Source of the DNA: a virus
DNA length: 26,803 nt
Strand: one strand, 5' to 3'
Virus record (IMG/VR): IMGVR_UViG_3300044634_000064
Span: 1-26,803 of that record
Position numbers and translations under genes: made by a program. The notes under the pieces were generated by a model. It saw only the letters and a list, made by a program, of their open reading frames with translations. It was not told where the DNA came from and did no database searches. Shown piece after piece: positions 16,664 through 21,102 of the stretch. The first letter of the stretch is position 1; every line of letters begins with the position of its first letter.

Positions 16664-18829
16664 ATGTCACCAATTCTAGGTGGTCGAGGGGCAGGCGTAA
16701 GAGCCTACGGCTTCGGTGGCGCAGGTGCTCCAGGTCAAGTGACTGGTCTGACTGCAACTGATGTTGGAAATGCACGTGCAGTTAACAATGGTCGCATCGA
16801 CCTTTCTTGGACTGCTCCGTCAAGCAATGGTGCACCGATTACTGGTTATAAGATTGACCGTTCAACTGACGGAACAAATTATACAAACCTTGTAGCAAGC
16901 ACTGGTTCAAGTACAACAACTTACTCTAATACAGGTTTGACTAGTGCTCAAATTTATTACTATAGAGTTGCAGCAATTAATGCTGTGGCTACTGGAATCA
17001 ATTCTTCACCTGCATCAGCAACTGCAACAACTATTCCTGCTGCTCCTACTATTGGTACAGCAAGCTGTGCAACAGGTCAGGCATACACTGGTAGCGCAAT
17101 CATTACTGTGCCTTACACTGCTGGAGTCACTGGCGGTAAAACCGTTACATACACAGCAACATCTTCGGGTGGCGGAACAGCCACGGGAGCTTCCCCTATC
17201 TCACTGAGCCAAACAGTTGGACAACCAGCATCAACTGCAAGAACATACACAGTTACTGCAACTAATAGTAATGGTTCTGCCGTCTCGGCAGCAAGTAACT
17301 CGGTGGCAGCAATCTCTGTACCACAAGCACCAACAATTACATCTGTATCTGTAGGCAATGCAACAGCAACTATTTTCTACACGGCAAATGCAACAGGCGG
17401 TGCTGGCATCACCAGTTACAATGGTCTTGCAAATCCTGGAAACATCCAGTCGCTGTATGGCTCTGGAACAAATGTTGTTATGAGTCCGCTAGTAAATGGA
17501 ACAGCCTATACCTTATCTGTAGCAGCGGTTAACTCTGCAGGTCGAGGCGCATATACACAAGCGGCTGGCACATACACACCAACTTCACCTGCGTGGATTA
17601 ACCTGACTGCGTCTAATGGTGGAGCATACGGAGTAGCAGGAGAAATTCCTGGTGACGGATTCGTCTACGCATTTGACGGAAGAGGAAGCCACGGAACTGT
17701 CTTTAAGTATAATAACCTAACTGGAGCACTAGTCTCGCAAAGGCAGTTAATTGAACAATTTACTTTTGCTGCCAACAAAGGTGTAGTCTATGACGGAACA
17801 GTAGACTCTTCTGGAAATATATATATCTGTGGAAATGCAGTAAACGGCTCATCGACAAGCCCAATGGTAGCAAAGTACGACTCATCACTTAATCTTTTAT
17901 GGGCTAAGCGAACAAGTCAAACTGCATACGCTGGTGTATTTTATAATAGAATACACGTAGATTCATCTGGCAATGTATATGTTGGAGGTTCTGGGTACAA
18001 CTACTCTAATGCATTTGGAATTTGGGCTAAGTATAATTCTTCTGGCGTATTCCAATACGGCAACCAAAGTTTCGGCGGTGACAGTAACTTCCAACCTGGA
18101 AGCGTAAATGGATTAGCAACAGACTCTAGTGGTAATTTTTATGTATTAGCCAGCCATTTCAGCGGTGGCACTACTGTACTATTTAAGTATGGTCCTTCGG
18201 GTGGTTCTATCTTGGCACAAAGAGAACTATACACACAGAATACTAATTACAAAACAGCCAACTGCGACTTGGTAGTAGACCCGTCAGGCAATGTGTATGT
18301 TTTAACTTTGGGAAACAGCCAAGATTCTTACATATCAAAATTTGACTCTTCATTGAACTTGCAGTGGCAGGTAGCAACAACCAGTAATCCATCCCTTGAA
18401 TGGCCTCAGCATAAAATACATGTGGACTCAAGCGGAAGCGTATACATGATTGGACATAGGTCGAACACTCAAGCTCACATATTGAAGTGGAACTCAGGTG
18501 GAGGATTCCTATTTCAGCGACAAATAGATGCATGTCTTGCAGCGGATTTAAAGACAATCGGCAACGACATGATATTCTTTGGAAGACTCTTAAATAATAA
18601 CTCTGTCTTTATGCTGCGAGTCCCTAATGATGGAAGCAAAACGGGTACGTATACTGTCGGCGGAGTAACTAGGACTTATCAAGCAAGCAGTTTACCAATC
18701 GGAGCAAATATTGCTACACTTGTTAGAACTTCATCGTATACCATATCTACGAGTACGGGAGTTAGCACGTCTGACATAAGTCCTACGTTAGCAACTCCAA
18801 CCTTTGTTTCTAATACCGTAGCAATCTAA
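16664..18829 (+). CDS. Adhesin: fibronectin-III domains plus SBBP-type beta-propeller
   Basis: 721 aa. A short Gly-rich N-terminus precedes an FN3 domain at about 23-123 (IDLSWTAPSSNGAPITGYKI ... YYYRVAAINAV). An Ig/FN3-like domain follows to about 217, and a third FN3-like domain to about 307. From about 325 to 640 there are at least five repeats of the DSSGNVYVxG type followed by a YDSSLNLLW-like strand, the signature of SBBP/NHL-like beta-propellers. No signal peptide. Placed directly after the fibre gene, with AAGGAGATT before its start, it is probably a tail-tip or accessory fibre protein that binds host surface carbohydrate or protein. Codon choice looks more TTT/ATA-rich toward its end. 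Confidence 0.75.
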   Translation: MSPILGGRGAGVRAYGFGGAGAPGQVTGLTATDVGNARAVNNGRIDLSWTAPSSNGAPITGYKIDRSTDGTNYTNLVASTGSSTTTYSNTGLTSAQIYYYRVAAINAVATGINSSPASATATTIPAAPTIGTASCATGQAYTGSAIITVPYTAGVTGGKTVTYTATSSGGGTATGASPISLSQTVGQPASTARTYTVTATNSNGSAVSAASNSVAAISVPQAPTITSVSVGNATATIFYTANATGGAGITSYNGLANPGNIQSLYGSGTNVVMSPLVNGTAYTLSVAAVNSAGRGAYTQAAGTYTPTSPAWINLTASNGGAYGVAGEIPGDGFVYAFDGRGSHGTVFKYNNLTGALVSQRQLIEQFTFAANKGVVYDGTVDSSGNIYICGNAVNGSSTSPMVAKYDSSLNLLWAKRTSQTAYAGVFYNRIHVDSSGNVYVGGSGYNYSNAFGIWAKYNSSGVFQYGNQSFGGDSNFQPGSVNGLATDSSGNFYVLASHFSGGTTVLFKYGPSGGSILAQRELYTQNTNYKTANCDLVVDPSGNVYVLTLGNSQDSYISKFDSSLNLQWQVATTSNPSLEWPQHKIHVDSSGSVYMIGHRSNTQAHILKWNSGGGFLFQRQIDACLAADLKTIGNDMIFFGRLLNNNSVFMLRVPNDGSKTGTYTVGGVTRTYQASSLPIGANIATLVRTSSYTISTSTGVSTSDISPTLATPTFVSNTVAI

Positions 18830-18837
18830 GGAGAAAA

Positions 18838-19401
18838 ATGTTAGGTAATAAATTTTTAATCTACTGCGCTGGATTCCCTAGAAGTGGCAATCATTTTTTA
18901 AACTATGCCATAAACTTGCTATACTTTCCAGAGGTTCCAAATCAGCCAGTTCAACACAGCACTTGGGTATTTAGGGATTCGATGCTTGCGCGAGCAAGAT
19001 GTTTCGCTCCATTTAGGCATCCGTTAGATTGCATTTCTTCTTGGGATAATTTTAAGATTACTGTAGGAGAAGAAAGAGATTTAGAAAAAGATATTGAAGA
19101 ATATATTAACTTTAATACCTATGTACTACAGAACTTTGAAAAAATAACATCCCTTGATTTTGATAAGTTTACAGTAGATATAGAATATATAAAAGAACGC
19201 GTCTTGACTCGTGCAGATATAGAACCAGTAGCAGATACAACAGTAGAAGAAGTCAAAGCAAAAATGATTGAGCATAATAGAGAACAACATTTGCCGAGAG
19301 ACTATACTGAAGAACTGGAAGAAGCTAAGGCCTTTATCCAAAACCATCCACGATATCAGGAGTGTCTTGATATCTACAATCGACTGAAAGAACAATCGTA
19401 A
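18838..19401 (+). CDS. Sulfotransferase (PAPS-dependent type)
   Basis: 187 aa. The 5'-phosphosulfate-binding loop appears at residues 13-20 (FPRSGNHF, compare the classic YPKSGTTW). The 3'-phosphate-binding motif is at 59-69 (FRHPLDCISSW, compare RNPxDxxxSxxxF). Between them the protein is shorter than in cellular sulfotransferases (usually 250-350 aa), so it is a compact form. The second half contains ITSLDFDKFTVDIEYIK and a helical C-terminus. The enzyme family transfers sulfate from PAPS to a hydroxyl or amino group of carbohydrate, lipid or protein; the acceptor here is unknown. AAGGAG precedes the start. The gene looks A/T-richer than the structural genes, with 11 of about 13 Phe codons TTT, consistent with acquisition. 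It abuts the APS-kinase-like gene (3-base gap). Confidence 0.75.
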   Translation: MLGNKFLIYCAGFPRSGNHFLNYAINLLYFPEVPNQPVQHSTWVFRDSMLARARCFAPFRHPLDCISSWDNFKITVGEERDLEKDIEEYINFNTYVLQNFEKITSLDFDKFTVDIEYIKERVLTRADIEPVADTTVEEVKAKMIEHNREQHLPRDYTEELEEAKAFIQNHPRYQECLDIYNRLKEQS

Positions 19402-19404
19402 CAT

Positions 19405-20154
19405 ATGATAATTCAAATCATTGGTCTTCCTGGGGCGGGAAAGACTGCATTGGCTACGGCGCTTGCCGATAGAATTAATGCGGTTCATTTCAACGCCGAT
19501 GATGTAAGAGCAGACCTTAACTCTGACCTTGGGTTCACACCTGAGGACAGGGTTGAGCAAGCCCGTCGTATGGGTGCACTAGCACGTCTTACAAGTAAGC
19601 AAGGTTATATAACTGTAGTTGATTTCGTCTGTCCAACCGAAGAGACTCGCGCAGCCTTCGGTAAAGCAGACATTCTTATTTGGGTTAATCGTATTGAAGC
19701 AGGACGCTTTGAAGATACTAACAAGATATGGGAAGACCCTACTAACGCTGACCTAGTAATCCTTGATGGAATTACAGTCGAGCGTGAAGTAGAAGCTGTC
19801 ATCAAAGCCTTTGGGCTTCACGACTGGCGCGAGCCAACTACCCTTATGTTGGGTCGTTATCAACCATGGCATGAAGGACATCATGCTCTATTGGAGAAAG
19901 CACATGAACGTACAAATCAAGTTGTTATTGCCGTTAGGGATACTCACGGCACTAGCGAAAAAGACCCTCTGCCTTATCAAGAGGTTGCCAATCGGATACG
20001 AGCCGAAGAACGGTCACCTTTCGTTGTAAAGTTTCCCAACATTACGAACATAGTTTATGGTCGAGATGTCGGGTACAAGATTGAGCAAGTGGATTTAGGC
20101 GCTGATATTCACAGCATTTCAGCAACACAGAAGCGCAAGGAAATGGGTCTGTGA
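19405..20154 (+). CDS. APS-kinase-like domain fused to HxGH nucleotidyltransferase
   Basis: 249 aa, two domains. Residues 1-135 have a P-loop (GLPGAGKT, 7-14) and NADDVRADLNSDLGFTPEDR at 30-49. The latter closely matches the adenylylsulfate-kinase signature DGDNVRxxLxxDLGF. VVDFVCPTEETR at 71-82 and a lid-like EDTNKIWEDP segment at 103-112 also fit CysC. Residues about 145-249 form a nucleotidyltransferase with GRYQPWHEGHH (HxGH at 156-159) and ISATQKRKE near the end, like NMN adenylyltransferase and phage 'cytidylyltransferase' proteins. APS kinase makes PAPS, the donor for the sulfotransferase encoded just upstream. The acceptor nucleotide of the second domain is not determinable here. Kinase specificity is also inferred, since the first Asp of DGD is Asn. 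Confidence 0.8.
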   Translation: MIIQIIGLPGAGKTALATALADRINAVHFNADDVRADLNSDLGFTPEDRVEQARRMGALARLTSKQGYITVVDFVCPTEETRAAFGKADILIWVNRIEAGRFEDTNKIWEDPTNADLVILDGITVEREVEAVIKAFGLHDWREPTTLMLGRYQPWHEGHHALLEKAHERTNQVVIAVRDTHGTSEKDPLPYQEVANRIRAEERSPFVVKFPNITNIVYGRDVGYKIEQVDLGADIHSISATQKRKEMGL

Positions 20155-20360
20155 ATGTAACCAAATCTAGGTCATTTGCCAAGTCACTCAGCTATAGAAT
20201 ATTTGGTACACTAACCTCCTTTATTGTTGTATATGCCATCACTGGCGAAGGGGCGCTTTCCGCCCTTATCGCCTTGTGGGAGACAATACTTAAGGTTGGT
20301 GTATACTACTGGCATGAAAGACTTTGGGACAAAATATCCTGGGGTAGAAAATCTAAATAA
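20151..20360 (+). CDS. DUF2061-type small membrane protein
   Basis: 69 aa starting at GTG, which overlaps the preceding TGA (GTGA). The pattern SRSFAKSLSYRIFGTLTSF, a hydrophobic segment, then a second hydrophobic helix and YYWHERLWDKISWGRK matches the DUF2061 family of predicted inner-membrane proteins. Two membrane helices are likely, at about 17-31 and 36-51, with a basic C-terminus. Function unknown. Tight coupling to the kinase/nucleotidyltransferase gene suggests a linked job, for example in sulfur or cell-envelope metabolism, but that is inference. Confidence 0.8.
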   Translation: MNVTKSRSFAKSLSYRIFGTLTSFIVVYAITGEGALSALIALWETILKVGVYYWHERLWDKISWGRKSK

Positions 20361-20373
20361 AATAGGGGACACT

Positions 20374-21102
20374 ATGAGTAAAGTAAACAAAGGAACACTA
20401 GCAATTGGTTGGTGTGACAACGGTAACACTGATGGCAAGTTCACAGAAGGTGTTGTCAGCGTAGCATTACAGTGCGCTAACAATGGTATTGAACTGACCC
20501 ACAGCATGCGAGTCCAGGGTAATCAGATTGGTAGACAACGTCAAGTTTTATTTGAACACTGGGCTGACAAGATTAAGAGCGATTGGCTTTTATGGATTGA
20601 CTCAGATATTGTAGTTAATATGGAAGTAGTCGCTAAACTTTGGGATGCAGCCGATAAGATTAACAGACCAGTTGTTAGCGGAACTTACTTCATCTCCAAG
20701 GAAAGCGAAAGCACACTAGCTAAGCCATATCCTGCTTTGTTCTTTGATATAGATGAGCACACTATCCAGCATGTGCACCCACTACCTCACAATGAAATTA
20801 TTAAAGTAGACAGCGCAGGATTTGGTTTTGTGCTTATGCATAAGTCAATTATTTCTAAGATGCGTGATAAGTTTCCAGGCCAATCAATGTTTGCAGAACA
20901 AGAAGACATTGGCGATAGATATGTAGGAGAAGATATTGTCTTCTTCCGTAAGATGCAAGAAGCTGGCGTTCCATTGCACGCGCACACTGGTGCACTAGTA
21001 AAGCACATTAAGCGATTTTCGCTAGATGTTGGGTACTACGATATGTACTGGACACTAGATATGATTAAACAAAAGGCGCAAGAAAAACAACAACAAGACT
21101 AA
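20374..21102 (+). CDS. GT-A family glycosyltransferase
   Basis: 242 aa from ATG at 20374, which has AGGGGA five bases upstream. The frame is open further upstream to 20224 but that part overlaps the DUF2061 gene. Visible GT-A features are a nucleotide-sugar-binding opening (GTLAIGWCDNGNTDG), DWLLWIDSDIV with the metal-binding Asp-x-Asp, AGFGFVLMHKSII, and a GEDIVFFRKMQEAG segment followed by a basic/aromatic end. The family transfers a sugar from a nucleotide donor. Donor and acceptor are unknown. The neighbouring sulfotransferase and adenylylsulfate-type kinase suggest a glycan that is both built and sulfated. It could modify virion proteins, phage DNA or host surface; no DNA-modifying partner is visible. 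Confidence 0.75.
   Translation: MSKVNKGTLAIGWCDNGNTDGKFTEGVVSVALQCANNGIELTHSMRVQGNQIGRQRQVLFEHWADKIKSDWLLWIDSDIVVNMEVVAKLWDAADKINRPVVSGTYFISKESESTLAKPYPALFFDIDEHTIQHVHPLPHNEIIKVDSAGFGFVLMHKSIISKMRDKFPGQSMFAEQEDIGDRYVGEDIVFFRKMQEAGVPLHAHTGALVKHIKRFSLDVGYYDMYWTLDMIKQKAQEKQQQD

Follow-up and report, generated by a model that had tools for sequence, protein, structure and literature searches.

A putative phage sulfation cassette: a short protein with a sulfotransferase fold beside an APS-kinase-like enzyme fused to a nucleotidyltransferase

The PAPS-dependent sulfotransferases (SULT, TPST and the Pfam families Sulfotransfer_1/3) are recognized by a common fold, a 5'-phosphosulfate-binding loop and an R-x7-S motif that binds the 3'-phosphate, and those of the SULT type are about 280 aa long and carry a lysine in the loop. 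The APS kinase CysC is marked by a P-loop followed by DxxR, LGF and DR motifs, and in the animal-type bifunctional PAPS synthase an APS kinase precedes an ATP sulfurylase, a nucleotidyltransferase of the HxGH superfamily, in one chain. Sulfotransferases also occur in phage genomes, where their function is unclear (PMC10580990). Here we analyse a linear virus record of 26.8 kb from an aquatic phage (the window, that is, the whole stretch of DNA under analysis), whose major capsid protein has its nearest match in Streptomyces phages (55% over 69%) when only isolates of recorded host are considered, and in which relatives of these enzymes are encoded side by side. The features of the locus, all on the plus strand, are the following:

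16664..18829 (+), FN3/beta-propeller fibre-like protein, directly 5' of the cassette (ORF list, Pfam)
18828..18833 (+), ribosome-binding site AAGGAG of the sulfotransferase gene (read from the sequence)
18838..19401 (+), gene of the predicted 187-aa sulfotransferase (profile, model and fold comparison)
18874..18897 (+), FPRSGNHF, 5'-phosphosulfate-binding loop (PSB), residues 13-20; R15 invariant in 17 relatives (alignment)
19012..19044 (+), FRHPLDCISSW, 3'-phosphate-binding motif (PB), residues 59-69; R60 and S68 (R-x7-S) invariant in 17 relatives (alignment)
19405..20154 (+), 249-aa bifunctional APS-kinase-like/nucleotidyltransferase protein, phrog_10255 (Pfam, PHROG, NCBIfam, PDB, alignment)
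19405..19824 (+), APS-kinase-like domain, with the P-loop at 19423-19446 and DDVRADLNSDLGF at 19498-19536; domain end approximate
19837..20151 (+), HxGH nucleotidyltransferase domain, with LGRYQPWHEGH at 19849-19881 and ISATQKR at 20116-20136; domain start approximate
20151..20360 (+), DUF2061 small membrane protein, its GTG start overlapping the kinase stop (Pfam, 2.1e-17)
20374..21102 (+), GT2-like glycosyltransferase (phrog_34859), a backbone gene 3' of the cassette (Pfam, PHROG, relatives)

Compared with the described sulfotransferases, the phage protein shares the fold over nearly its full length as well as both binding motifs, but has only 187 aa, has an arginine in place of the loop lysine and stays below the Pfam thresholds. 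An earlier note on this DNA had called it a sulfotransferase from the motifs FPRSGNHF and FRHPLDCISSW, which are indeed present, although by themselves they would be weak evidence for such an identity. As a single sequence the protein gave no match above chance in Pfam, PHROG or NCBIfam, did not reach the gathering cut-off of Sulfotransfer_1/2/3 and found only chance matches in the PDB; its one match in a phage database, a protein of Synechococcus phage S-SKS1, was rejected as chance, that protein being an Exostosin-type glycosyltransferase. Pattern scans with the single sequence likewise found no relatives, and these were obtained by an alignment-based scan and by mining the neighbourhoods of the kinase; three of them (L006, L047 and L002) have weak Sulfotransfer matches below the cut-off. 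In an alignment of 17 diverse relatives R15, H40, R60 and S68 are invariant, and H40, which lies between the two motifs, 20 residues before R60, may be the counterpart of the catalytic histidine of SULT enzymes, an assignment made without a residue-level structural alignment. When the 17-relative profile was compared with the PDB, the first 15 matches were sulfotransferases (best E 5.8e-5), whose PSB and PB motifs fell into register with those of the profile, and when an HMM of eight family members was run against 1803 ORFs from the fetched loci, the only matches outside the family were sulfotransferase-like proteins, several of which also carry Pfam Sulfotransfer matches. AlphaFold2 supplied with the 17-sequence alignment returned a model with a pLDDT of 92 and a pTM of 0.88; without an alignment the pLDDT was 37 and the model useless. 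Foldseek placed sulfotransferases in all of the top 28 positions when this model was compared with the PDB, only one of them with E below 0.001, and the VIA aligner superposed it on mouse SULT1D1 with PAPS over 179 residues with a Z of 12.6, all 50 of the 50 rows shown being sulfotransferases. The motifs are thus more than chance, because their residues are invariant, the profile finds PDB sulfotransferases and the model has the corresponding fold, and the structural check proposed in the earlier note places the protein inside that fold. We conclude, from the predicted model, that the 187-aa protein has a sulfotransferase fold; PAPS binding and sulfate transfer are not supported by any biochemistry. 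A catalytically inactive protein with this fold, for instance a binding protein, might also be short, have the arginine in place of the classic lysine and fall below every curated threshold, but the invariance of the four residues among diverse relatives and the direct link to the kinase kept in many phages make it unlikely.

The kinase gene starts three bases after the sulfotransferase ORF, as first noted from the sequence together with the APS-kinase signature, and the assignment holds: the protein matches PF01583 (APS_kinase) at 1e-16 with 61.8 bits against a cut-off of 21.1, and in the PDB it matches APS kinases with E down to 3e-16. The strong similarity covers residues 1 to about 85, where the P-loop, DxxR, LGF and DR motifs of CysC are all found, and stops there, so that the lid region differs; the remainder of the kinase domain is diverged and shorter than in CysC, and a nucleotidyltransferase is fused to it. 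We call the domain APS-kinase-like since its score remains under the equivalog cut-off of TIGR00455, apsK (CysC), with 60.9 against 138.7 bits. R35, F44 and R49 (DxxR...LGF...DR), which we take to be residues of the APS-binding site, are invariant in 24 kinase sequences and were aligned to PAPSS1.

The earlier note described this protein as a kinase and overlooked its C-terminal domain. Residues ~145-249 form a CTP_transf_like nucleotidyltransferase (PF01467, 26.9 bits, cut-off 21) with conserved GRxQPxHxGH, YGRDVGY and ISATxxR elements, closest to NMN adenylyltransferases (PRK01153, 1.2e-6; MJ0541 in the PDB, 8.9e-6). This domain is retained in 172 of the 175 kinase proteins of the fetched loci, which are full length, the three exceptions being one protein cut short where its contig ends and two copies from bacteria. 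The order of domains is that of the animal-type PAPS synthase, except that the phage C-terminal domain comprises only ~105 aa, is NMNAT-like and has no match to the ATP-sulfurylase family PF01747, its matches being limited to PF01467 and NMNATs. The whole 249-aa protein matches phrog_10255 over its full length (1e-64), a family annotated as 'kinase' with no further function and without mention of a linkage to sulfotransferases.

The kinase-nucleotidyltransferase occurs in at least 600 virus stretches, and the linkage was assessed for a sample of 136 distinct proteins of this kind, nearly all from virus contigs. A sulfotransferase is encoded in the fetched stretch in 61 of these 136 loci, within 1 kb of the kinase in 51, and belongs to one of six sequence types; in about 55% none was detected in the fetched stretch. 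Where the sulfotransferase is of the type found in the window, it lies within 1 kb of the kinase in 17 of 18 loci, mostly 0-10 bp upstream, and all members of this family located by their own pattern adjoin the kinase. In 50 longer kinase-bearing records a Pfam sulfotransferase match was present in 24, and in 14 of these 24 it was at most 2 kb from the kinase, as against 3.5 expected under uniform placement within the record. As controls, 160 loci beyond the close relatives described below were drawn by two other genes of the region in which the cassette lies; sulfotransferase and kinase both occur in one of them (L317, with the cassette at the same place), the sulfotransferase alone in one and the kinase alone in none. 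A sulfotransferase is consequently present in 1/159 kinase-negative control loci (Fisher 1e-23 against the kinase loci), a p-value that overstates the evidence, given that many loci are related, the counts are not independent and the stretch lengths differ somewhat; the six sulfotransferase types and the scarcity in controls stand independently of it. This co-occurrence, together with the bacterial fusion described below, bears out the pairing of a donor-making and a donor-using enzyme proposed in the earlier note, in which the activities themselves remain inferred.

Other arrangements of these genes were also observed. A sulfotransferase of the PKTAG type, a gene beginning MRKTLEDFNF that matches Asp/Arg beta-hydroxylase and the kinase-nucleotidyltransferase form a recurrent three-gene cassette (L010:3845-5756, L012, L013, L014, L022, L023 and others). 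The phrog_7759 'MAHFA' domain, whose function is unknown and which elsewhere has its own gene close to fibre genes, precedes the sulfotransferase domain as an N-terminal fusion in L047:1788-2627, L004:4144-4998, L126, L127 and L131. In Casjensviridae isolates, kinase relatives of ~40% identity have no annotated sulfotransferase nearby; such proteins are found in the Clavibacter and Stenotrophomonas phage isolates OR548257.1, KU682439.2 and MZ326855.1 (L087-L089).

Fusion of domains into one chain is classic evidence for a shared pathway. In Rhizobium sp. BK376 (L091:5128-6795) a single ORF of 555 aa has the order Sulfotransfer_2, APS_kinase, CTP_transf_like. Another Hyphomicrobiales genome has two genes instead, a Sulfotransfer_1 gene (1.3e-26) that shares 14 bases with the gene for the kinase-nucleotidyltransferase. 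The inclusion of the nucleotidyltransferase in the Rhizobium fusion suggests that it serves the same pathway as the sulfotransferase. Hyphomicrobiales genomes also hold kinase-only relatives, and neighbours of two of these (L096 and L098), sulfotransferase-like by motif and without a Pfam match, were not counted.

Within its own lineage the cassette is optional cargo beside tail-fibre genes, as the close relatives mostly lack it: in 24 of them, with major capsid proteins 82-97% identical, the scanned downstream region contained neither gene. In L317, also a close relative, a 233-aa gene without a Pfam match (L317:1259-1960) lies between sulfotransferase and kinase. The DUF2061 ORF, likewise missed in the earlier note, is represented by a copy in 77 of the first 82 loci retrieved. 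The best-scoring bacterial DUF2061 match among the genomes sampled (L290:1498-3197, the same place as L287) lies directly 3' of genes for a CysH-like reductase and an APS kinase, in the order cysH-cysC-DUF2061; as a marker of sulfate assimilation the family is only suggestive, a motif scan having found no cysteine-pathway gene in the other 24 loci. Most close relatives without the cassette still have the GT2-like glycosyltransferase, after which comes the gene of a 745-aa protein, the 'tail protein' of the earlier note. Far upstream, at 464-1009 of the window, a 181-aa ORF has a weak match, below the cut-off, to a proteasome subunit family (0.0043).

A kinase joined to an NMNAT-like domain is also the architecture of NadR, and the cassette could be read as NAD salvage, with the sulfotransferases as coincidental cargo of a variable region, as the kinase loci that lack one would allow. 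This is very unlikely, inasmuch as the kinase domain resembles APS kinase at 1e-16 and AAA_28, the NadR-type kinase family, only at 0.0029, the NadR equivalog cut-off is missed by far (20 against 341.15 bits) with the domain order reversed, sulfotransferases are nearly absent from other loci drawn from this cargo region (1 of 159), and the bacterial fusion and overlapping genes tie the two enzymes together. About as unlikely is that the product is some other nucleotide-activated donor, used by the neighbouring glycosyltransferase rather than by the sulfotransferase: APS-kinase-like proteins of capsule clusters can make other donors (Campylobacter Cj1415 being a cytidine diphosphoramidate kinase), a glycosyltransferase does follow the cassette and the kinase is under the apsK cut-off, but that glycosyltransferase is a backbone gene that most kinase-free close relatives also have, and the recurrent neighbours in other phages are the six sulfotransferase types and DUF2061.

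A rival that weighs more concerns the nucleotidyltransferase alone, namely that the kinase domain converts APS supplied by the host into PAPS while the C-terminal domain has another job, such as NMN or some other adenylyl or cytidylyl transfer. The resemblance to NMN adenylyltransferases and the kinase-only relatives of Hyphomicrobiales favour this division, whereas the near-universal retention of the domain among the kinases and its place in the Rhizobium fusion speak against it; we regard it as a real possibility, short of an even chance. The same weight, and no more, is given to the proposal that the 249-aa protein constitutes a minimal PAPS synthase in a single chain, working from sulfate and ATP, in which an NMNAT-like domain replaces the classical ATP sulfurylase. 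Neither an ATP sulfurylase (Sat) nor a CysD/PAPS_reduct-family protein was found in the 50 kinase-bearing records, an absence that could count for APS synthesis by the nucleotidyltransferase; against it stands a sequence unlike that of ATP sulfurylase.

Taken together, we consider it likely, in the absence of biochemistry, that the locus is a horizontally mobile phage sulfation cassette composed of a PAPS-dependent sulfotransferase, a donor-supplying kinase fusion and a DUF2061 protein of unknown role, a reading that rests on the fold, the kinase homology, the recurrent linkage and the fusion, all of them computed. Since the kinase half carries the substrate residues of APS kinases, we infer that it most probably yields PAPS. 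In the sulfation cassette so conceived, the kinase domain would make PAPS by phosphorylating APS at its 3'-OH, and the sulfotransferase would pass the sulfuryl group to an acceptor; speculatively, glycans or proteins of the host envelope or of the fibre region of the virion are the most plausible candidates. The targets put forward in the earlier note (fibres, a host glycan or a lipid) and the late co-expression proposed there are likewise inference only. Also speculatively, the nucleotidyltransferase domain may form APS from ATP and sulfate, and with a domain attached to the kinase that could do so, the donor-making step may go beyond what the earlier note proposed. Some streamlined freshwater bacteria lack genes for sulfate reduction and assimilation (PMC11561045, PMC6169038), and in such hosts a full donor pathway would be useful; the host of this phage has not been identified.

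The components are of known kinds; to judge from the literature searched, a search that was not exhaustive, neither their pairing nor a kinase-nucleotidyltransferase architecture serving as donor source has been described. The recurrent link of the donor enzyme to six types of sulfotransferase and the bacterial fusion indicate that some phages bring not only the transferase but also the means to supply its donor, and the pair gives phage sulfotransferases a testable role, as a system of two genes open to expression and assay. Should the nucleotidyltransferase prove to form APS, the protein would represent a novel type of PAPS synthase, of a size small enough to be of use in enzymatic sulfation, and phages equipped with such a minimal synthase could sulfate in hosts that may lack sulfate activation. 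This would point to sulfation of the virion or of the host surface as a phage strategy.
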